Positions 7,687-19,564 of a stretch of 64,000 nt of DNA are shown here, in pieces (position 1 is the first letter of the stretch; every line of letters starts with the position of its first letter). Source of the DNA: Labrys wisconsinensis (GTDB lineage: Bacteria; Pseudomonadota; Alphaproteobacteria; Rhizobiales; Labraceae); contig NZ_JAUSVX010000011.1 of NCBI RefSeq assembly GCF_030814995.1, positions 1-64,000 of the forward strand. Direction: 5' to 3'. Made by a program: the position numbers and the translations under genes. The notes under the pieces were generated by a model. The model was not told the origin of the DNA, ran no database searches, and was given only the letters and a program-made list of their open reading frames with translations.

Positions 7687-8514
7687 TCAGCCTTTCACGC
7701 CGCCGGCCAGGAGGCCGCCGACCAATTGCTTGCGGAACAGGAGGAAGAGCAGGATCGCCGGCATGGCGATGACGCTGCCGCCGGCCATGATCTGGCCCCA
7801 GGAGAAGGAATAGGGATCGAACAGCGCCTGCAGCGCCAGAGGCAGTGTCTTGACCTCGGATTTGGTGATCAGGGCCAGCGCCATGATGTATTCGCCCCAG
7901 GACAGCACGAAGGCGAAGGTGCCGACCGCGACGATGGCCGGGCGGATCAGCGGGATGACGATGCGCAGCGCGGCGCCGACATGGCTGCAGCCATCGATCA
8001 TCGCCGCCTCTTCGAGCTCGCGGGGGATGGCGTCGACATAGCCTTTCAGCATCCAGACGGCGATCGGCATGCCCAGGGCGAGATGGGTGATGGTCAGGCC
8101 CGTCAGGGTGTTGTTGAGGCCGAGATTGCGGAAGATGACGACGAGCGGCACCATGACCACGAGGCTCGGCAGCATCTGCGTGCCCAGGATCAGGAAGCCG
8201 AACAACCCCTTGCCGCCGAAGCGCAGTCGGCTCAGCGCGAAGGCGGCGGGCACGGCCAGCGCCGTGGTGACGAGCGTGACGGCTATGCCGACGATCAGGC
8301 TGTTGCCGAGCGCGATCATGAAATCGCGCCGGCCTATGATGGCGGCGTAGTGCTCCAGCGTCAGGCGCGTCGGCATGAGGCCGCCGCCGGTAATGTCGGT
8401 CTCGGGCCTCAGCGAGGCGGCGAAGACCCAGAGGATCGGCAGCAGCAGCAGGCCGACGCAGATCAGCGTGATGAGGTCGAGGGCGGCGCTGCGGCAGGCG
8501 GAGGTCCGTCGCAT
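7687..8514 (-). CDS. Carbohydrate ABC transporter permease (UgpE/MalG type)
   Basis: A 275-residue inner-membrane permease with about six hydrophobic segments and the cytoplasmic EAA loop (ELEEAAMIDGCS, about residues 167-178) that docks the ATPase. The TLPLALQAL and C-terminal GGVKG stretches are typical of the MalG group. Its ATG overlaps the stop of the first permease (ATGA at 8514), so the pair is co-translated. A longer in-frame extension upstream would lie inside that permease gene and is rejected. Confidence 0.9.
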   Translation of the reverse strand: MRRTSACRSAALDLITLICVGLLLLPILWVFAASLRPETDITGGGLMPTRLTLEHYAAIIGRRDFMIALGNSLIVGIAVTLVTTALAVPAAFALSRLRFGGKGLFGFLILGTQMLPSLVVMVPLVVIFRNLGLNNTLTGLTITHLALGMPIAVWMLKGYVDAIPRELEEAAMIDGCSHVGAALRIVIPLIRPAIVAVGTFAFVLSWGEYIMALALITKSEVKTLPLALQALFDPYSFSWGQIMAGGSVIAMPAILLFLLFRKQLVGGLLAGGVKG

Positions 8515-9437
8515 CACGCCTCCTTCCGGGCGCCGAGCGCGATCAGGGAGGCGATGGCGAGCAGGACCAGCATCACCACGCTGATCGCCGCGCCATAGGC
8601 CGGCCTGAGGTCGAGGAAGATCGCCTTGTACATCGCGATGCCGATGACGGTGGTGGCATCCTGCGGGCCGCCCTTGGTCATGATCCAGGGCAGGTCGAAG
8701 GAGTAGAAGGCGAGGATGCCGAGCACCAGGGCCATGGTGACGGTGGTGTTGCGCACCGCCGGGACCGTGATGTGCCAGAAACGCGCCGGCCAGCCGGCGC
8801 CGTCGACCTCGGCCGCTTCGTAGAGCTCGTCCGGTATGGCTTTCAGCGCCGCCAGCAGCGCAATGGCGAGGAAGGGGGTGCCCTTCCAGCCCGAGATGAA
8901 GATGATGGTTGCAAAAGCCAGGACTGGATCGTTCAGCACGGAGCTGGAGCCGGCGATGCCGACGGCGTGAAGCGCGGCATGGATCGGGCCGACATTGCTG
9001 TCGAGCAGGAAGCGCCAACCGAAGCCCAGCACCACGAAAGGCGTCACCCAGGGCAGCAGGATCAGCGCCGAGGCCCCGCGCGCAATGGGCGTATCGCGAT
9101 TGAGCAGCAGCGCGAGCGGCACCGCCAGCACCACTTCGACGAAGACGGTGCCGAGCGTCCAGACCCAGGTGCGGCCGAAGGCGGACCATAGCGTGCCGTC
9201 CTGGAGCAATTGACGGTAGTTGATCAGCCCGCCCCATCGGGGAACCGGGCTGCGCAGCAGATACCAGTCCTGAAGCGAGAGCCAGACCGCGTAGCAGAGC
9301 GGTATGACGGCAACGAGGAGGGCGACCAGAACGGCCGGGCCGATCAGTCCATAGGCAAGCAAGGCTTCCCGCGCCCTTGGCCGGCGCAGGGAACCCGGCC
9401 GCGGCTGGGTCGACGACAAGGCCAGGCTACCGCCCAT
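8514..9437 (-). CDS. Carbohydrate ABC transporter permease (UgpA/MalF type)
   Basis: A 307-residue permease. A basic cytoplasmic N-terminus precedes the first helix (LLAYGLIGPAVLVALLVAVI), a periplasmic stretch and five more helices. The EAA loop ELYEAAEVDGAGWPARFWHI (about residues 202-221) contacts the ATPase. IMTKGGPQDAT is a family hallmark. With the MalG-type partner it forms the membrane channel for the binding protein encoded just upstream. Confidence 0.9.
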   Translation of the reverse strand: MGGSLALSSTQPRPGSLRRPRAREALLAYGLIGPAVLVALLVAVIPLCYAVWLSLQDWYLLRSPVPRWGGLINYRQLLQDGTLWSAFGRTWVWTLGTVFVEVVLAVPLALLLNRDTPIARGASALILLPWVTPFVVLGFGWRFLLDSNVGPIHAALHAVGIAGSSSVLNDPVLAFATIIFISGWKGTPFLAIALLAALKAIPDELYEAAEVDGAGWPARFWHITVPAVRNTTVTMALVLGILAFYSFDLPWIMTKGGPQDATTVIGIAMYKAIFLDLRPAYGAAISVVMLVLLAIASLIALGARKEA

Positions 9438-12157: not shown

Positions 12158-12823
12158 TCAGGGCTTCTGGCCGTCGCTTGCGAAAGCGCGCCGTGCTCCT
12201 GCCGACTGTCCGCCTGCATGTTTCTCGAGAAAAGCTTCGACGGACAGGTTGCGAAAATCCTCGAGAGCCGCCCTGAGCGTGGCGTGATCCCAGTCCCACC
12301 ACGCCAGGGCTCGAAGCCTTTCACCGATCTCGGGCGCAAAGCGGTTCCTGATCTTGCGGGCCGGAACGCCGCCGACGATCGTGTATGGCGCAACATCCCT
12401 GGCGACGACCGCGCCGGCCGCAACGATCGCCCCATCGCCGACCGTTACGCCCTGTATGATCGTCACACCGTGCCCGATCCAGGTGTCGTGACCGATCACG
12501 ACGGCGTTTTCCCGCCGATTCGAGAAAAAATCCTCCTCGTCGGAGGCATCGGGCCAATAGTCCCCGGCGCGATAGGTGAAGTGGTGCAGGCTGGCACGCG
12601 TGATCGGATGATTGGTTGCGTTGATTCGTGTCGAAGCGGCTATGTTGGCAAATTTGCCGACGCGCGAGCACCAGATCTGGCAATGCTGCATGGCGTAGGA
12701 ATAGTCGCCCAATTCGGTTTCCGCGATGCGGCACCCCTCTTCCACCTCTGTATAGCGTCCGAGCTTGCTGTCCGTGACGACGGCGGATGGATGAATGAGA
12801 GGGGCTGCGGAATATTTTACCAT
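12158..12823 (-). CDS. Hexapeptide acyltransferase, phosphonate-associated type
   Basis: A 221-residue left-handed beta-helix protein. Hexapeptide turns run through [24 protein letters not shown] and [34 protein letters not shown], ending with [10 protein letters not shown]. The whole pattern, including [22 protein letters not shown], matches the transferase subfamily often found in phosphonate (phn) operons (TIGR03308), which is related to chloramphenicol/streptogramin acetyltransferases. No C-P lyase genes are present in this window. It is encoded divergently from a PhnF-like regulator, separated by one palindromic operator, so it is probably part of that regulon. Confidence 0.8.
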
Positions 12824-13019
12824 GCCTGAGTTCCTGCAAGACGGCCCGATGCCATCGATACCGGGATAGACAGCTCGATCGCGAACCGCCTAAGTCTGGG
12901 CGGACGGGACCGACGGCCTCTCGTTTGGGGAAAACGTCCCGCAGCGTGAGCGGACTGGAGGGGAAAACTTTAGCGCTTGGGCTTTACACAGCGCTGCCTC
13001 GCTCGCGCTCTTTCCGCGC

Positions 13020-13048
13020 TTGACGTCAGTCGGTTATCTAGATCTATA
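13020..13048 (+). promoter_or_regulatory. Candidate promoter of the GntR regulator
   Basis: TTGACG (13020-13025) and TCTATA (13043-13048) are separated by 17 bases. The 14-bp palindrome begins three bases downstream, so the regulator would block its own promoter. The leader to the ATG at 13289 is about 230 bases and holds no gene I recognise. Confidence 0.45.
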
Positions 13049-13050
13049 TA

Positions 13051-13064
13051 AACATATAGATGTC
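13051..13064. promoter_or_regulatory. GntR/PhnF operator, copy 1
   Basis: AACATATAGATGTC differs at one base from the two other copies (18347 and 19551), which read GACATATAGATGTC. The three AT-rich palindromes sit in front of the acyltransferase/regulator pair, the ABC operon and the PHP gene. Here it is embedded in a larger symmetrical block, ATCTATAT-AAAC-ATATAGAT. Confidence 0.8.
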
Positions 13065-13288
13065 TTTGATGGCAATCGGTGAAAGCGAAGGTTGGGCAGC
13101 GGAAACACGGTTTGGCTCGCCGTTCGGCTCCCCGCCGAAAAGCGGGCGGATTTGACCGGGCCGCCGGCAGGGATGTCGCGTCTGCGCCGCCGACCACGAT
13201 GGCTGGAACGCGTGGCAAGCCTTGTGGCGAGCGGCGGAAGTCCCGAGAGGAGCGCATCCGCGTAGTGTCGAGGGGTAGGAGAAGCTTT

Positions 13289-14002
13289 ATGCGCACCTCC
13301 GGTGTGATCATATACAAGCGCGTCGTGGACGAACTTGTGGACGACATTGCGAGCGGCAAGCTCGAGCCCGGTGCGCAATTGCCACCCGAACAGGACCTTT
13401 CGGCACGTTTCAGCGTGCATCGGCATACGCTTCGCAGGGCCATTTCAGTCCTGTCGGACATGGGACTGGTGACGGTCGAGCACGGACGCGGAACCTTCGT
13501 CACGGCGGGGGCGCTCAATTATCCCGTTGCTCGACGAACACGGTTTACCGAAGTCATCTCCAGGCAGAATCTGACTCCGTCCTCGACGGTTCTTCGCACC
13601 GCCATCGTGTCCGCGAAATCGCAGCTGGCCGCCGATCTGCAGGTCGGGGACGGCACGCCCTGCATCATGATCGACATGCTGCGCTATGCTTCCGGCCTTC
13701 CGGTGTCGCTTGCATCCCACTACTTCGTTCAGGCCAGATTTCCGACCCTCATCGACGCCATCGAAAGCAAGGGATCGCTCTCCCGCGCGTTGAAAGAGTG
13801 CGGCGTGGAGGAATATTTTCGAAAGACGACCCGCGTTTCGGCGCGAAGCGCGACCATGGAAGAGGCAAAGCTTCTCCGGCAGACCCCTTCGAAGCCCGTT
13901 CTGGTTTCTGAGACCGTCAATGTCGACAAGGACAACGGGCCGATCGAATATGGCGTGATCCGGAGCGCGTGCGAAAGGCTGCAACTGGTCTTCGAGACCT
14001 GA
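13289..14002 (+). CDS. PhnF-like GntR-family regulator (HutC subfamily)
   Basis: A 237-residue regulator. The GntR winged helix (about 5-75) contains KLEPGAQLPPEQDLSARFSVHRHTLRRAISVL and the wing VEHGRGTFV. The C-terminal UTRA effector domain (about 95-235) has YPVARRTRFTEVIS, FPTLIDAI and PVLVSETVNVD. The YPxxRRTRF block is characteristic of the PhnF branch that controls phosphonate or phosphate-ester uptake genes. Start: ATG 13289 with AGGAGAAG before it; upstream in-frame codons are Arg-rich and unlikely. It converges with the ABC operon, with stops six bases apart. It presumably binds the three 14-bp palindromes. Confidence 0.88.
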   Translation: MRTSGVIIYKRVVDELVDDIASGKLEPGAQLPPEQDLSARFSVHRHTLRRAISVLSDMGLVTVEHGRGTFVTAGALNYPVARRTRFTEVISRQNLTPSSTVLRTAIVSAKSQLAADLQVGDGTPCIMIDMLRYASGLPVSLASHYFVQARFPTLIDAIESKGSLSRALKECGVEEYFRKTTRVSARSATMEEAKLLRQTPSKPVLVSETVNVDKDNGPIEYGVIRSACERLQLVFET

Positions 14003-14007
14003 GAACC

Positions 14008-14841
14008 TCACCCTTTCACCGCCCCCGCGGTGAGCCCCGCCACAAGGAAGCGTTGGATGGCGGCGAAGAAAAGGACTGCGGGCAGAAGCGCGATCAGCCC
14101 CGCGGCGCTCACCTGCCCCCAGTCGACGCCGAGCTTCGAGACGAGGGAGAGAAGACCTGCGGGCAGTGTCTTCTCCGTTTCGGTGTTGAGCAATGTCAGG
14201 GCGAGGAACAATTCGCTCCAGGCTTCCACGAAGACAAATCCGAGGGTTGCCCCCAGGCCGGGCAAAGCGAGGGGCACCACGATCGTCGTGAAGGTTTCGA
14301 AGCGGCCATAGCCGTCGAGCCTCGCCGCTTCCTCGACCTGAACCGGCAATACGTCGAAAAAGGACTGCATCAGGAAAATCGCGAAGGGCAGATTGATGGC
14401 CGAATAGACCAGGCTCAATCCGAGGAGGGAATCCAAGAGGCCCACTGTCGCCAGCAGCTTCATCAGCGGCACGATGATCAGGATGATCGAGACCATCTGC
14501 GTGACCAGGAAGGTCACGCCAACCGTCTTCTTGCCGGCGAAGTCCCAACGCGACAGGCCATAGCCGGCGAGGGCGGCGAGGCACGTCGTGACCGCCGAGG
14601 CGGTCAGAGCCGTGACGAGGCTGTTGGCGAAATAGGATTGAAACGAGGCCCATCGCCAGATCTCGGCGAAATGATCGAAGGTGACGCGGCTCGGCCATAA
14701 GCGAACGCCCTCGGAATACAGCAATGCGGTCGGTGTTATCGACGTCTTCGCAATCCAGAAGAGCGGGAACAGAGTAAAAACAAGAAAGGACACGAGAATC
14801 AGCGACCGCAGGATGGCGAGCAAGGGAATCGGCCGGCTCAT
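14008..14841 (-). CDS. ABC transporter permease (UgpE/MalG type)
   Basis: A 277-residue permease with six predicted helices and the EAA loop VQVEEAARLDGYGRFETF (about residues 168-185). It is the last gene of the PhnF-linked transporter operon, and its ATG overlaps the previous stop (ATGA). With the partner encoded at 14838 it forms the inner-membrane channel. Family resemblance covers glycerol-phosphate, sugar and other carriers, so the substrate has to come from context. Confidence 0.9.
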   Translation of the reverse strand: MSRPIPLLAILRSLILVSFLVFTLFPLFWIAKTSITPTALLYSEGVRLWPSRVTFDHFAEIWRWASFQSYFANSLVTALTASAVTTCLAALAGYGLSRWDFAGKKTVGVTFLVTQMVSIILIIVPLMKLLATVGLLDSLLGLSLVYSAINLPFAIFLMQSFFDVLPVQVEEAARLDGYGRFETFTTIVVPLALPGLGATLGFVFVEAWSELFLALTLLNTETEKTLPAGLLSLVSKLGVDWGQVSAAGLIALLPAVLFFAAIQRFLVAGLTAGAVKG

Positions 14842-15773
14842 CCCAGCCTCCCGAGTTTTCGACGGAAGCGCAGGATGACGATGCTGTATGCCAGCAGGAC
14901 GAAAACCTGAACGAGCGCCGCCGCCGCGGCTCCGCCCTCGTCGAGCTCCACGAACGCCTTGGTGTAGATGTAGGTCGGGACGATCTGGGTGGCACCGGCC
15001 GGCCCGCCCTGGGTCATGACCCATATCAGATCGCCGAAATTGGCGATCCAGGCGGTCCTTAAGAGGATCGCGGTCAGAAACATCGGCGCGATGAGCGGCA
15101 GCGTGATCGAGCAGAATTGCTCCCAGGCCGAAGCGCCGTCCAGTTCCTTGGCTTCGTAGAGCTCTTGCGGGATCGTCTGCAGCGCAGCAAGGCAGGTGAT
15201 GGCGAAGAAGGGAACGCCGATCCAGACATAGGCGACGATGGGTCCCCAGATGGCGACGGCGGGTTCGGCCAGCATGTCGCTCGGCTGCCTGAGAAGGCCG
15301 GCGGAAACGAGCAGACCGGGCAGAACGCTGGTGCCGGGATTGAAGAGCTCTTCCCAGAACAGGCCGACCAGGATCGAAGGGATGGCCCAGGGCAGGAACA
15401 GGATCGGCTGGAGGCATTTCAGAAGGCGGCTCTTCCCGTGCAGGGCGAGAGCCAGGATCAAGCCGAGGGTGGATTGGATCAGCAGCGTCGTCAGCGTCCA
15501 GAACAGCGTGTTGCCGGCGACGCGGGCGAAGCCGCCGTCGGCGATCAGCGCTTGGAAATTGGCAAGCCCGACGAAGCCTCCCGGCGAAAAGGGATCGTCG
15601 GGCGTGGATCCGATGAAGGCCTGGAAGACCCCGAGCGCCAGCGGCGCAAAGAGGACAAGGCCGATCAGAGCGAGCGCCGGCAGAAGGCACAGCCATGGCG
15701 CGACGTTGAAATTGGACCGGCGACGACCGCCGGCCCCTTTCGTCACAGCGAAGTGCGCCGAGTCGGACGTCAT
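14838..15773 (-). CDS. ABC transporter permease (UgpA/MalF type)
   Basis: A 311-residue permease whose basic N-terminus (GGRRRSN) precedes the first helix APWLCLLPALALIGLVLFAP. The EAA loop is ELYEAKELDGASAWEQF, with Lys in place of the second Ala, which is a tolerated variant. MTQGGPAGATQIVP is the usual family signature. The ATG follows the binding-protein stop after one base, so the genes are coupled. Confidence 0.9.
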   Translation of the reverse strand: MTSDSAHFAVTKGAGGRRRSNFNVAPWLCLLPALALIGLVLFAPLALGVFQAFIGSTPDDPFSPGGFVGLANFQALIADGGFARVAGNTLFWTLTTLLIQSTLGLILALALHGKSRLLKCLQPILFLPWAIPSILVGLFWEELFNPGTSVLPGLLVSAGLLRQPSDMLAEPAVAIWGPIVAYVWIGVPFFAITCLAALQTIPQELYEAKELDGASAWEQFCSITLPLIAPMFLTAILLRTAWIANFGDLIWVMTQGGPAGATQIVPTYIYTKAFVELDEGGAAAAALVQVFVLLAYSIVILRFRRKLGRLG

Positions 15774-15774
15774 G

Positions 15775-17058
15775 TCATCGATCGGCGAGATAGCGCTTCT
15801 GGGCGGCGGTCAGGACGGCGGCCCATTTTTCTGCCGTTTCCTTGACGTCCTTCTGGCCGAGCAGGATGGCCTGGCCGTCCTCCATCATGGTCTTGTCATA
15901 GAGCGTGCCCCATTCGGGCAGATAGGCCGGCTGCGTCCAGGTCTGATAGGTCTGGGGCTGCTGCAGCGTGGTGAGGAAAGCCTTCCACACGTCGGCCGCA
16001 TAGAACGGATCCTTCTCGGCGCCGACATGGACCGGCGCCATGAACAGGTATTTGTCCAGCGCGAGGTTCTGCTTGTCCGCCATCAGGAAGGCGATCAGCT
16101 TCCAGGCTTCGTCCTTGTTCCTGGAGGCCGCCGACATCGCCCACGAGAAATAGCCCATCGAAGGAAAGGCCTTGCCCGTCGCGCCGGTCGGAATCGGCAC
16201 GACACCGAACTTCGACGGGTCCATCTTCTTCAGGATGTCCGGGAGCGCATCGGGATCCTGATCGAGAAGCGCGCATTGGCCGCTGGTGAAGCCGGCGACG
16301 GAGTCGCCAAAACCCCAGGCGATGCTTTCCCTGGGCGAATAACCCTTCCTATACAGGTCGGCATATTTCTGCATGCCTTCCTGGAAGGCGGGGAAGGCAT
16401 ACAGGCTGTTGCCGTCGGCGTCGAAGAAGGATCCGGTCGCGCCGAACTGCATGGGGAACGATCCCCAGCCATAGCCGCCGCCCTTGCCGGCACGCATGCA
16501 GTAGCCATACTTGCCCGGCAGCTTTTCGGTCACGATGGCCGCGGCCTTGAAGAAGTCGTCCATGGTCCTCGGCGGCTCGACGCCGGCCTGCTGCAGCATA
16601 TCCTTGCTGTAATAGAGAGCCCTGATGTCGAAGCCGTAGGGCAGCCGATAGACGCTCTTCGTGCCGACCTTGCCGAGCTCGATGACGCTGGGAAGGATGG
16701 AGGCGAGCTCCGGCGTCTTCGCGATGTAGCGGTCCAGCGGCTCCAGCTGGTGGCCTTTCACGTAGAGGCCGCCCCAACGGTCGGCGAGCTCCACGACGTC
16801 CGGCGCCTGGCCCGACTTGTACATCGTCAGAAGCTTTTCGAACGACGAGTCGTAGGGCAGGGAAATCAGGTTGACCTTGATATCCGGATTGGCCTTCTCG
16901 AATTCGGCGAGCTGGCTGGTGATCAGCTCCGTTCTGGCCGGGCTGGTCAACACTTCGACCATGGTCAGCTCTCCGGCCTGCGCGGCGCCGGCGAGGGCAA
17001 GACAGCATGTCGAAGCGGCGGCGGCCAGGAGGCTGGCCACCTTGCGGCGTAGGCTCAT
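15775..17058 (-). CDS. Extracellular solute-binding protein (Ugp/sugar type)
   Basis: A 427-residue family 1 binding protein. The Sec signal peptide covers about residues 1-28 (RRKVASLLAAAASTCCLALAGAAQA). Typical stretches are FEKANPDIKVNLISLPYDSSFEKLL, MYKSGQAPDVVEL and ALYYSKDMLQQAGV. Start: ATG 17058 has GGAG six bases upstream; a second in-frame ATG at 17070 is possible. The context (PhnF-like regulator, PHP hydrolase) suggests a phosphate ester, phosphonate or similar charged ligand rather than a plain sugar. That is inference, because this family does not show its ligand by sequence. Confidence 0.9.
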   Translation of the reverse strand: MSLRRKVASLLAAAASTCCLALAGAAQAGELTMVEVLTSPARTELITSQLAEFEKANPDIKVNLISLPYDSSFEKLLTMYKSGQAPDVVELADRWGGLYVKGHQLEPLDRYIAKTPELASILPSVIELGKVGTKSVYRLPYGFDIRALYYSKDMLQQAGVEPPRTMDDFFKAAAIVTEKLPGKYGYCMRAGKGGGYGWGSFPMQFGATGSFFDADGNSLYAFPAFQEGMQKYADLYRKGYSPRESIAWGFGDSVAGFTSGQCALLDQDPDALPDILKKMDPSKFGVVPIPTGATGKAFPSMGYFSWAMSAASRNKDEAWKLIAFLMADKQNLALDKYLFMAPVHVGAEKDPFYAADVWKAFLTTLQQPQTYQTWTQPAYLPEWGTLYDKTMMEDGQAILLGQKDVKETAEKWAAVLTAAQKRYLADR

Positions 17059-17112
17059 TGCGATCTCCATGAGGTCGGTTGCGATGTCGTCAAGTTCGGC
17101 CGTACGGGCCGG

Positions 17113-18288
17113 TCATGCCGAAGACGTCATGAGCAGACGGGCTGGTCCGGACGGCTCTTCGCGCATGTGGAGGGACAGCCGAAATCCGCTTTCGTCGAAG
17201 AAGACGGGATGGCCCGCTCGCGGATTGACCGAAACGGGAGAGCCCTCCTGCAGCTGCGCGGTATCGTGGGGATCGCGCCTTGCGAGGATCTCGTCGCCTT
17301 GCCGATCCAGGGCGATGTGAAGGATGAGCTCGCTGCCGAGATGCTCGATCCGGCGGATCGTGCCGGTCCAGCCGCGATCGCCGGAGGGACCGACGACGAG
17401 CGCCTCGGGCCTTACCGCGACGGTGACGCGCTGGGGCGGCGCATGTCCCGTCACCGGAATTCGCAGATTGCCGCTTTGAACGAAGCCTTCGGCGCGCAGA
17501 TCGCCCCCGACCAGATTGATCCGCGGCGCCCCGACAAACTCGGCGACCGCGCGAGAGGCGGGATTGGCGTAAATGTCGGCCGGCGTGCCGACCTGGAGGA
17601 TCTCGCCGGCGTGCATGACGGCGATCTTGTCGGCCATCGTCATGGCCTCGGCCTGATCGTGGGTGATGTAGACGATGGTTGCCGACAGGCGACGATGAAG
17701 CTCGACGAGCTCGTTTCGCATCTGCGCGCGAAGATTGTAGTCGAGATTGGACAGCGGCTCGTCCATCAGGAAGATCTGAGGGCGGCGGACGACCGCGCGG
17801 CCGATCGCCACGCGCTGGCGTTGCCCGCCCGAAAGAGTGTCCGGCCTACGGTCCAGGAGATGCCCGATCTTCAGCGAGGCCGCCACGTCCTGGACTTCGC
17901 GCCGGATCTCCCGAAGCTTGCCCTTCGTCGAAGGCAGCAAGGATCCCAGCACCGGAAGCCGCTGAAAGACATCCAGCTTTCTCACGCGCAGCGGCGATGC
18001 GATATTCTGCGCCACCGTCATGTGCGGATACAGCGCATAGGATTGGAACACCATGGCGATGTCGCGCTTGGCGGCTCTCACATCGTCGATCCGCCGTCCC
18101 GCGACATGGATTTCACCCGCGTCCTGCCTTTCAAGACCTGCGATGATGCGCAGGAGCGTCGATTTTCCGCAGCCCGATGCGCCGAGGAGGGCGACGAACT
18201 GGCCGTCTTCAATCGCAAGAGAAACGCCGCGGAGCACGGGCGTGTCGCCGAAGCTCTTTTCGATGCGCCTGAGCTCTATCGCCGCCAC
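17113..18288 (-). CDS. UgpC/MalK-type ABC transporter ATPase
   Basis: A 391-residue ATPase. Walker A is GASGCGKST (about residues 38-46), followed by the Q-loop, signature SGGQRQRVAIGRA, Walker B FLMDEP and D-loop SNLD. A C-terminal OB/TOBE region (about 240-380) is typical of MalK-like subunits. Start: GTG at 18288 with GGCGGAGG upstream; a longer frame reaching 18387 overlaps the operator at 18347 and is rejected. It is the first gene of the operon. As the only ATPase of this class in the window, it may also energise the LacI-linked transporter at 7687-10736. Confidence 0.92.
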   Translation of the reverse strand: MAAIELRRIEKSFGDTPVLRGVSLAIEDGQFVALLGASGCGKSTLLRIIAGLERQDAGEIHVAGRRIDDVRAAKRDIAMVFQSYALYPHMTVAQNIASPLRVRKLDVFQRLPVLGSLLPSTKGKLREIRREVQDVAASLKIGHLLDRRPDTLSGGQRQRVAIGRAVVRRPQIFLMDEPLSNLDYNLRAQMRNELVELHRRLSATIVYITHDQAEAMTMADKIAVMHAGEILQVGTPADIYANPASRAVAEFVGAPRINLVGGDLRAEGFVQSGNLRIPVTGHAPPQRVTVAVRPEALVVGPSGDRGWTGTIRRIEHLGSELILHIALDRQGDEILARRDPHDTAQLQEGSPVSVNPRAGHPVFFDESGFRLSLHMREEPSGPARLLMTSSA

Positions 18289-18346
18289 AATCGCCTCCGC
18301 CCACCGACTATGGACGGAACTTGGCAAAGATTTGCTACGTTCCCAT

Positions 18347-18360
18347 GACATATAGATGTC
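18347..18360. promoter_or_regulatory. GntR/PhnF operator, copy 2
   Basis: GACATATAGATGTC lies 59 bases upstream of the ATPase start and includes a -10-like TATATG on the minus strand. It is identical to the copy at 19551. A repressor bound here would block transcription of the whole four-gene transporter operon. Confidence 0.85.
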
Positions 18361-18493
18361 TCGCAAATGTCCGAGGACTTCTGGCATCGTCAGGGCCGTT
18401 CAGGCGCGTATCGGCCCGGACGGCGGACGGCATGTGTCGGGTCGAAATCGATCTATCCCATTGAAGGGACTTTCATTTTTCTATGGGATGGTG

Positions 18494-19399
18494 TCAGTCA
18501 GGCCAGATGGGATTCGTCCAGGCCTGATGGCCGGCGTCGTCCATGACGACGATGCGGCACCAGTCGCCGGCAAAGCGCGCGAGCGACAGCACCGTTTCCG
18601 TCGAAGACCGGCCGCCATGGTCGACATTTTCCACCCGCGATCCTCGGCCGAGGATCGCCGCCCCTCGTATCGCAGAAGACGCGATACGGACGGCATCTCC
18701 GTCAATTTCGATGTGCTTGATCGTCGGGCCGCGCGAGGAATAGTAGTGGCCTCGCTTCATGGCGCTCAAAAGAGCCTGGGGCGTGTTCTCTTGCGCTTTG
18801 ACCATCATCCAGCCGCCGAACCAGTCCCTCGCCTTGAAATGCGCATCGTCGGCGGCGTATGCGAGCAGGCGGTGGCCTTCGTTGAGAAGAGCGTCCAGAA
18901 ACGTCGTGCCGTCTCCGCGGTCGCATTCCACGGCGCTGGTGGTATTCCAGATCTCGATCGCATGCGCGATGCCTGCCATCTGTCGCCCGTCCTCGATCGA
19001 GAGGCCGGACCATTGCGGGTGAGCAATGCCGAGAAAGGCACCTGCCGCGACGGCTCTCTTCGCCAGCGCAACGGCATTCTCATCCGCTCCGAGCGGAGGG
19101 AAGCCGGGCGGCAGACCGCAAGCGAGCAAATGCCAGATCTCGCCGTGGCTGTTGGCCGGAGCATGGATCTCGGCGCCGATGATCGTCGTGAATCGATCCG
19201 AGCGATAGGGAGCGGTGTCGACGAGAGGGAAGTCGTAGATTGCAAGGAAATGATCGGAGAGGCAGAGAAAGTCGTAGCCCGCCCTGCGATAAATTCCACA
19301 TACGTCTTCGGGAGAAAGAATGCCGTCCGACCTCGTCGAGTGCGTATGGATGTTGCCACGGTAAAAGCGGCCCTGCGCGGCGAACGCTGAGACAGTCAT
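18494..19399 (-). CDS. PHP-domain metal-dependent hydrolase (CehA/McbA-like)
   Basis: A 301-residue PHP-fold protein. Metal ligands are visible in order: HTH (His18, His20) in GNIHTHSTRSDG, Asp25, SDH (Asp49-His50), Glu77 and His79 in GAEIHA, His127 in GIAHPQWS, and a late AADDAHF. PHP enzymes hydrolyse phosphoesters, and CehA-like members also cleave carbamate or ester bonds. No signal peptide is seen, so it should act in the cytoplasm on the imported compound. Start: ATG 19399 with AGGAC upstream; a longer frame to about 19556 would overlap the operator at 19551. It is transcribed alone from an operator-controlled promoter and belongs to the PhnF-like regulon. Confidence 0.82.
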   Translation of the reverse strand: MTVSAFAAQGRFYRGNIHTHSTRSDGILSPEDVCGIYRRAGYDFLCLSDHFLAIYDFPLVDTAPYRSDRFTTIIGAEIHAPANSHGEIWHLLACGLPPGFPPLGADENAVALAKRAVAAGAFLGIAHPQWSGLSIEDGRQMAGIAHAIEIWNTTSAVECDRGDGTTFLDALLNEGHRLLAYAADDAHFKARDWFGGWMMVKAQENTPQALLSAMKRGHYYSSRGPTIKHIEIDGDAVRIASSAIRGAAILGRGSRVENVDHGGRSSTETVLSLARFAGDWCRIVVMDDAGHQAWTNPIWPD

Positions 19400-19550
19400 C
19401 TGATATTTGTCCTGGTTTACGGCGGTCACGGAAATCCGGCGGCGCGAAGCGATCGCCACACGTCCATCTGCGCACCTGAGACCATCGATGATCCGGGCGA
19501 GCCGGCATTGCTCCACCCGGGAAGCTAGGCGGCAGCGATGGCATGCGTGT

Positions 19551-19564
19551 GACATATAGATGTC
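19551..19564. promoter_or_regulatory. GntR/PhnF operator, copy 3
   Basis: GACATATAGATGTC again, 152 bases upstream of the PHP hydrolase start, with the -10-like TATATG on the minus strand. The exact repeat of a 14-base palindrome in front of a second transcription unit supports a shared regulator. Confidence 0.85.

Follow-up and report, generated by a model that had tools for sequence, protein, structure and literature searches.

We analysed 64,000 nucleotides of Labrys wisconsinensis DNA (positions 1 to 64,000 of contig NZ_JAUSVX010000011.1, here C11; this whole stretch is called the window) and found at 12158-19564 a locus in which three near-identical copies of one putative operator mark the genes for a PhnF-type regulator, a phosphonate-type acyltransferase, an ATP-binding cassette (ABC) importer and a PHP-domain metallohydrolase. 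By its sequence features the locus is a real local regulon linked to phosphonates, compounds in which carbon is bonded directly to phosphorus, and a role in ester hydrolysis is plausible for it. We tentatively favour the reading, to which we give somewhat less than an even chance, that a PhnF paralogue whose operator has changed directs the uptake and hydrolysis of esterified phosphonates for a carbon-phosphorus (C-P) lyase encoded in trans.

One putative operator stands in three copies at the locus

The palindrome GACATATAGATGTC occurs exactly at 18347-18360 (copy 2), upstream of the ABC operon, and at 19551-19564 (copy 3), upstream of the PHP gene, and with one change, as AACATATAGATGTC, at 13051-13064 (copy 1), between the divergent acyltransferase and PhnF genes. 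The sequence search thus bears out the two exact copies and the single variant of the original prediction. The stretch common to the three copies extends further on one side than the palindrome: the 14-mer ACATATAGATGTCT is the same in all of them, at 13052, 18348 and 19552 on the plus strand, and shuffling gives 0.04 expected window matches to it at up to two mismatches. The 12-bp palindromic core ACATMTAKATGT has three exact matches in the genome of 8,926,997 bases, all at the locus, with about 0.15 expected when the base composition of the window is applied to the genome; at up to one mismatch it has nine places in the genome, versus five for a reversed control pattern. The proposal of a single operator is therefore supported, since the site marks the promoters of the PHP gene, of the importer operon and of the divergent PhnF/acyltransferase pair and has no other exact copy in the genome.

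Copy 2 sits 59-72 bp upstream of the refined ATPase start, copy 3 sits 152-165 bp upstream of the refined PHP start, and copy 1 lies 225-228 bp from either divergent start. The operators had also been placed on or next to -10 elements. A sigma-70 consensus scan found a promoter at none of the three sites, so this overlap is unproven; TATATG itself is present within the minus-strand operator.

A wider regulon marked by the palindrome was considered and rejected. By hand counts, the core occurs at 31 places in 23 of the 199 same-order genomes besides the window's own, versus 23 places for the reversed control, which is near chance. Of the 31 places, 23 were read with up to 3 kb of sequence each, and at E ≤ 1e-8 they gave no relative of the window proteins. 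Unlinked copies of the palindrome in related genomes had been named beforehand as evidence against the regulon; such copies exist, but at roughly the control rate, which makes them uninformative.

Curated profile models confirm the gene calls made earlier. The hexapeptide acyltransferase (12158-12823, minus strand) matches the phosphonate-metabolism model TIGR03308 with 316.8 bits (cut-off 201.65). The PhnF-type GntR/HutC regulator (13289-14002, plus strand) scores 230.1 bits against TIGR02325 (cut-off 156.8), contains the GntR helix-turn-helix (PF00392) and UTRA (PF07702) domains, and is placed by the tree described below. On the minus strand, the order of transcription is the PHP gene and then the ABC operon. 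The PHP-domain metallohydrolase of CehA/McbA type (18494-19399, refined start 19399) scores 103.3 bits against NF038032, a broad domain model with a cut-off of 80. The operon comprises a UgpC/MalK-type ATPase (17113-18288, refined start 18288, a GTG with GGAGG), a solute-binding protein assigned by domain search and relatives to the SBP_bac_1/8 carbohydrate group (15775-17070), and, by profile models, permease 1 of UgpA/MalF type (14838-15773) and permease 2 of MalG/UgpE type (14008-14841); its end meets the end of phnF.

The acyltransferase and C-P lyase

Judged by the company that it keeps across genomes, ACYLTRANSFERASE connects the locus with phosphonates. At E ≤ 1e-60 the TIGR03308 acyltransferase is found in 79 of the 199 same-order genomes (own included), and 77 of these 79 have phnJ (Fisher p ~1e-32), a gene present in 98 of the 199. 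Among the 78 other genomes, 64 have an acyltransferase copy no more than 15 kb from phnJ; unlike these, the window's copy is not on a phnJ contig of its genome (G000). It is the better of two acyltransferases over the cut-off in the genome, the second being on contig C29, and no acyltransferase gene was seen in the 14-19 kb stretches around the five phnJ genes. In this genome, the acyltransferase adjoins the operator of the regulon, and no copy turned up within a C-P lyase operon. An acyltransferase from the phn operon of the Haematobacter massiliensis plasmid pOT1-5 shares 62% identity with the window protein and also scores over the TIGR03308 cut-off. PhnO, for its part, is described as acylating aminophosphonates (PMC10574752).

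The five phnJ genes lie on contigs C8, C3, C7, C15 and C14, and none on C11. Five is the highest number among the 199 same-order genomes, the next being three (G137). In the whole window, tblastn with phnG, phnH, phnI, phnJ, phnM and phnN gave no match at E ≤ 1e-5, and the phnK and phnL queries matched only ABC ATPase-type stretches, at 26-33% identity. The original observation that phnGHIJKL are not seen thus holds for the window, and the description 'without C-P lyase' fits the locus and not the cell. As the genome has five phnJ genes, the locus cannot count as a pathway complete in itself; at most it would be a satellite of phosphonate metabolism.

The PhnF regulator and its operator

The window genome encodes 11 PhnF-type regulators over the curated cut-off, five with phnJ within 8 kb and six, this locus included, without. 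One of the phnJ-less genes, on contig C31, lies near a PEP-mutase-family gene. At E ≤ 1e-50 the window PhnF finds a match in 15 other genomes, and 12 of these matches lie within 3.5 kb of phnJ. At the remaining three (G075, G064 and G094, from three other families; the solo loci), phnF stands with genes for a binding protein, a UgpC-like ATPase, one or more permeases and a calcineurin-like metallophosphoesterase; the G075 contig ends past the first permease, and there the phosphoesterase is located before PhnF. A tree of 20 PhnF proteins joins the window protein to the three solo PhnFs at 92/92, which is short of the 95/80 star of the tool, and the PhnFs adjoining C-P lyase genes fall outside this group.

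The phosphoesterases of the solo loci match the SpdA and CpdA models with scores below the cut-offs. The one searched in the PDB, from L293, is nearest to 2zo9/2dxl/3d03, which we take to be GpdQ, and to Rv0805. By this comparison, the PHP protein may take the role of the calcineurin-like phosphodiesterase at the window locus. Near the G075 solo locus (L292, on contig C386) there are also two genes of the PF01663 phosphodiesterase family, one of which is 47% identical to the phosphonoacetate hydrolase PhnA.

From phnF-phnG intergenic regions we derived the C-P lyase PhnF operator TGTMTA-N6-TAKACA, which occurs once each, exactly in four loci (L088, L137, L139 and L140) and in the genome's own C8 operon, where the phnF site reads TGTCTAATGGTATAGACA, and with one mismatch in L295. 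The operator-like inverted repeat stands in the phnF-phnG intergenic region before alphaproteobacterial C-P lyase operons (L088, L137, L139, L140, L023 and L295). The own genome has two exact places, one at phnF on C8 and one on C9, and five at up to one mismatch versus six for the control. Within the window, no match to it exists at up to one mismatch. The predicted window operator is different from the C-P lyase PhnF operator, and we infer a lack of cross-talk between the two PhnFs of the cell. Neither the solo PhnF loci nor the other PhnF genes of the genome showed a recurring palindrome of this kind.

The PHP protein and its genomic company

Against Pfam PF02811 (PHP) the protein scores 20.4 bits, below the cut-off of 26.4. 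The motifs HxHS, DH, AExH, AHP and DDxH are kept in all eight aligned sequences, with H17, H19, D48, H49, E76, H126, D184 and H186 invariant (numbering from residue 2), which we take to be metal ligands. Foldseek, run with a modest model (mean predicted local distance difference test score 67), ranked the PHP proteins 2anu (E 1.3e-4) and 7ug9 (E 6.1e-4) best. A single-sequence search of the PDB found no related chain at E < 0.01, and a profile search reached PolX and TM0559 through about 40 N-terminal residues; by profile or fold, the PDB relatives include TM0559, PolX and RNase AM. A likeness to PsfC (Foldseek 7rty, rank 5, E 2.7e-3, root-mean-square deviation 14.3) was rejected, as the fit is too poor to use; PsfC is described as a dinuclear non-heme iron enzyme of a phosphonate pathway (PMC12871164). 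A carbamate substrate, as raised in the original prediction, has the family name as its sole support.

The genomic context of the PHP protein was read at 40 of 46 places in other genomes (six were unfetched), at 7 of 12 further loci and at 9 of 19 plasmid records; the five most distant of the 12 loci (L040-L044) stand outside the counts and the tree. As controls served 60 random regions at round offsets, chosen by hand in genomes of the PHP set, none of which was discarded. phnL was dropped as a marker, as ABC ATPases cross-hit it, and phnF, phnK, phnY, psrA and aminotransferases were never counted. DUF1045 (TIGR03223) was added after being met beside PHP in L033 and L037; it also lies inside the C-P lyase operons of L295 and L297, two loci read for a different purpose.

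Phosphonate markers within about 9.5 kb were found at 9 of 47 PHP genome loci versus 1 of 60 random regions (p = 0.0025), and at 5 of 47 when DUF1045 is left out (p = 0.057). The phosphonate label is clustered on a tree of 57 PHP proteins: it requires 8 changes against a shuffled mean of 12.7, a value as low being reached in 2 of 500 shuffles. The window protein falls in a clade of 14 rows (support 100/99), and 7 of the 13 others are phosphonate-labelled versus 1 of 60 random regions (p = 8e-6), a p value inflated by relatedness, as the seven come from two lineages, three genomes of one genus and four Aurantimonadaceae. Two more members of the three-genome genus have phnJ 19 and 20 kb from PHP. 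Together with the co-occurrence of the acyltransferase and phnJ, this clade backs the phosphonate connection proposed at the outset.

Plasmids add further cases. Four of the nine plasmid loci, all alphaproteobacterial, have phosphonate genes: C-P lyase, phnA with phnY, phnX, and phnF with aepX. Haematobacter massiliensis pOT1-5 carries a C-P lyase operon that includes one TIGR03308 acyltransferase; within the same 18 kb, past a Tn3-family transposase, another TIGR03308 gene stands together with a PHP homologue and genes for an ABC importer. On the Rhizobium leguminosarum Vaf10 plasmid (L091), PhnF, a Dpp-type ABC transporter and PHP adjoin a likely phosphonate-making cluster with aepX, an aminotransferase, a cytidylyltransferase, a CDP-alcohol phosphatidyltransferase and two asparagine-synthase-related genes. 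CehA/McbA-type PHP homologues also occur near conjugation-type genes on Verrucosispora and Streptomyces plasmids (L241, L242 and L244), each followed by a small hypothetical gene and then a very large NUDIX-domain or hypothetical gene. Tandem PHP homologues, with about 30% identity to the window protein, occur in metagenome contigs of Clostridia and Oscillospiraceae (two in L040 and three in L041).

The importer and the extent of the regulon

The permeases and the ATPase score 93.8 of 335, 83.4 of 297 and 380.5 of 432 against the UgpA, UgpE and UgpC models, all under the cut-offs. From these scores, the putative importer is related to Ugp and is not Ugp itself. Relatives of the binding protein at E ≤ 1e-100 occur in 18 of the 198 other genomes, and its own genome has a second copy, at 40-45% identity; permease genes follow in the stretches of about 4 kb around these relatives. 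An orthologous locus elsewhere was sought and rejected, the best relatives of the binding protein being 40-45% identical in the order and below 60% on plasmids.

The left neighbours of the locus, a LacI-family regulator and another SBP_bac_1 binding protein, and the right neighbour, a GbdR-like AraC regulator, have no operator copy, so the regulon appears to span 12158-19564. Outside the locus, a tRNA lies at 129-202, close to the point where both the window and contig C11 begin. The exact gene set with the operator was not found among the 198 other same-order genomes. The suggested search for the same gene set in relatives thus failed to recover that set, but did find a comparable one with another phosphodiesterase. 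A literature search of titles and abstract beginnings, with most subscription journals outside its scope, found no description of the gene set.

Discussion

The gene families, the identity and uniqueness of the operator, the tie between the acyltransferase and C-P lyase, and the comparable layout at the solo PhnF genes are established. The substrate and the enzyme activity, and with them PhnF binding, repression, the inducer and the flow to C-P lyase, are what we infer beyond this. In our favoured model, PhnF would bind the three near-identical operators and repress its own gene, the acyltransferase, the Ugp-like importer and the PHP metallohydrolase. A phosphonate ester (for example an aminophosphonate esterified with a glyceryl or glycosyl group) or a breakdown product of it would act as the inducer and relieve repression. 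The importer would then take the ester into the cell, the PHP enzyme would cleave the ester bond, the acyltransferase would acylate the released phosphonate in the manner of PhnO, and C-P lyase encoded elsewhere in the genome would break the free phosphonate down.

Several observations weigh against this model. A PhnF of M. smegmatis governs a phosphate transporter, not a phosphonate transporter (PMC7866108). The window has three matches to TGTMTA-N6-TAKACA at two mismatches, with 0.27 expected. Two of them overlap each other (13035 and 13043) around copy 1 and form possible degenerate extra sites at 13035-13060, with the palindrome TTATCTAGATCTATATAA; the operator change may therefore be incomplete, and the degenerate matches may be remnants. 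The binding proteins of the solo loci (that of L294 lies at 7854-9164 on the minus strand) are 63-83% identical among themselves and only 23% to the window's, so the three solo modules are, on these identities, one related locus and one comparable case, and the transporters are not orthologous. PhnF, acyltransferase and PHP genes were not seen in 19 stretches of about 4 kb around the nearest relatives of the importer, one of them in the own genome, and the importer therefore seems recruited from a wider family. The solved relatives of the binding protein are, by name, mostly sugar binders.

The PHP evidence is also mixed. Of the seven linked clade members, four owe their label to DUF1045, which was added post hoc, and two of these four (L033 and L036) are just under the TIGR03223 cut-off that L037 and L038 exceed; without DUF1045, the clade has 3 of 13 versus 1 of 60 (p = 0.016). 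Across the 199 genomes, phnJ is present in 18 of 33 PHP genomes versus 80 of 166 others (p = 0.57), and a general dependence of PHP on C-P lyase is rejected, as the two do not co-occur. Close PHP relatives in two Rhizobium genomes (70% identical), G066 and G130 have no link to phosphonate genes, some close relatives lie among unrelated genes, and the five actinobacterial or archaeal plasmid PHP loci have no phosphonate genes nearby. Setting the clustering of the clade against the null result for family-wide co-occurrence, we suggest that the wider PHP family is broad and that the clade of the window protein leans to phosphonates.

Scavenging of phosphate diesters is a rival explanation: an importer of glycerophosphodiesters or nucleotide diesters, a PHP phosphodiesterase and a PhnF that senses a phosphate ester, with the acyltransferase a leftover or acting on an amino alcohol. 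The Ugp-like importer fits this proposal, as do the phosphodiesterases of the comparable loci, with their below-cut-off SpdA/CpdA matches and, for the one searched in the PDB, 2zo9/2dxl/3d03 as nearest relatives, and the TM0559, PolX and RNase AM relatives of PHP. We nevertheless consider it unlikely, given an acyltransferase that is nearly confined to C-P lyase genomes and adjoins the same operator, and a PHP clade that neighbours phn genes or DUF1045. Because of this acyltransferase and this clade, phosphonates are preferred over phosphate diesters, by a small margin. A PhnP-like role of PHP within the C-P lyase pathway is a live rival, to which we assign a low probability. In Eggerthella lenta, the PHP protein PhnPP acts on the product of PhnJ, a cyclic ribose phosphate, and opens its ring; the window PHP could likewise stand in for PhnP, with the importer serving free phosphonates. 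PHP homologues do lie near C-P lyase genes in L088, L137, L139, L140 and L173 and adjoin DUF1045 in four genomes, and phnP is not annotated in the Haematobacter stretch read. However, the PHP gene was not found in 80 of the 98 phnJ genomes, its operator is separate from that of the C8 C-P lyase operon, and in the four relatives with DUF1045 beside it a PhnP role would be redundant if DUF1045 performs that step, as it may.

Two further explanations seem to us very improbable. The PHP enzyme might, like its namesakes CehA and McbA, hydrolyse a carbamate, amide or carboxylic ester, and the substrate of the regulon would then be an amine, perhaps an aminophosphonate, in N-acylated or carbamoylated form. 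The match to the CehA/McbA domain over its cut-off speaks for this; but that model is broad, the comparable place at the solo PhnF loci is held by a phosphoesterase, and none of the operator-marked genes belongs to a known carbamate or amide pathway. Alternatively, the locus could simply serve the uptake of a sugar or polyol, with a regulator and an acyltransferase that are no more than look-alikes of phosphonate genes, as might be thought from a binding protein and permeases of the carbohydrate group, from the LacI-family regulator and second SBP_bac_1 protein next door, and from the nearest relatives of the importer, which have no PhnF, acyltransferase or PHP within about 1.5 kb. Against this, PhnF and the acyltransferase score well over their cut-offs, the latter is nearly confined to C-P lyase genomes, and the operator marks no sugar catabolic gene.

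A bolder form of the model of phosphonate-ester uptake and hydrolysis, which we regard as doubtful, is that the locus encodes a dedicated cytoplasmic route for bound phosphonates, with a switched-operator PhnF, an ester importer and a phosphonate-ester hydrolase of the PHP fold, and that a solo PhnF with an ABC importer and an interchangeable phosphodiesterase is a recurrent module feeding C-P lyase. The interchangeable enzyme is suggested by the GpdQ/SpdA-like protein in the comparable place at solo PhnF genes. In the same literature search, phosphonate-ester hydrolase activity was reported for no PHP protein. Phosphonates of marine dissolved organic matter are polysaccharide esters; for their release ahead of C-P lyase, PMC5649143 only postulates alkaline-phosphatase-like enzymes and leaves the responsible enzyme open. 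If the model is true, a PhnF-linked importer and the PHP- or GpdQ-like hydrolase that goes with it would offer a candidate for this release that can be tested directly, and the locus would show how a bacterium with several C-P lyases separates its regulons through a changed PhnF operator.

The proposed reaction resembles that of the phosphonate monoester hydrolases of the alkaline phosphatase superfamily, whose fold is unrelated to that of the window PHP protein. With CehA and McbA, the carbaryl and carbofuran hydrolases, the PHP protein has the same broad NCBIfam domain in common; they differ in that the operator-marked genes include no pesticide pathway gene and do include a phosphonate-type regulator and acyltransferase. 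PhnPP is alike in PHP family and C-P lyase setting and differs in genome setting. The Ugp system takes up glycerol-3-phosphate and glycerophosphodiesters, and the window ATPase and permeases match its UgpC, UgpE and UgpA models, under the cut-offs; the locus differs from Ugp in having a PhnF-type regulator and a PHP enzyme instead of a UgpQ-type phosphodiesterase. The solo loci of G075, G064 and G094 are alike in regulator clade (92/92), UgpC-like ATPase (46-47%) and the presence of a metal-dependent phosphoesterase, and differ in the binding protein (23%) and in the fold of the phosphoesterase; no acyltransferase was seen in their fetched stretches, and no operator in common with the window was found. 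Finally, the alphaproteobacterial phn operons (phnF-phnGHIJKL-acyltransferase-phnMN) have a PhnF-type regulator and a TIGR03308 acyltransferase in common with the locus, whereas the locus, without phnG-N, has a Ugp-like importer and the operator ACATATAGATGTCT instead of TGTMTA-N6-TAKACA.

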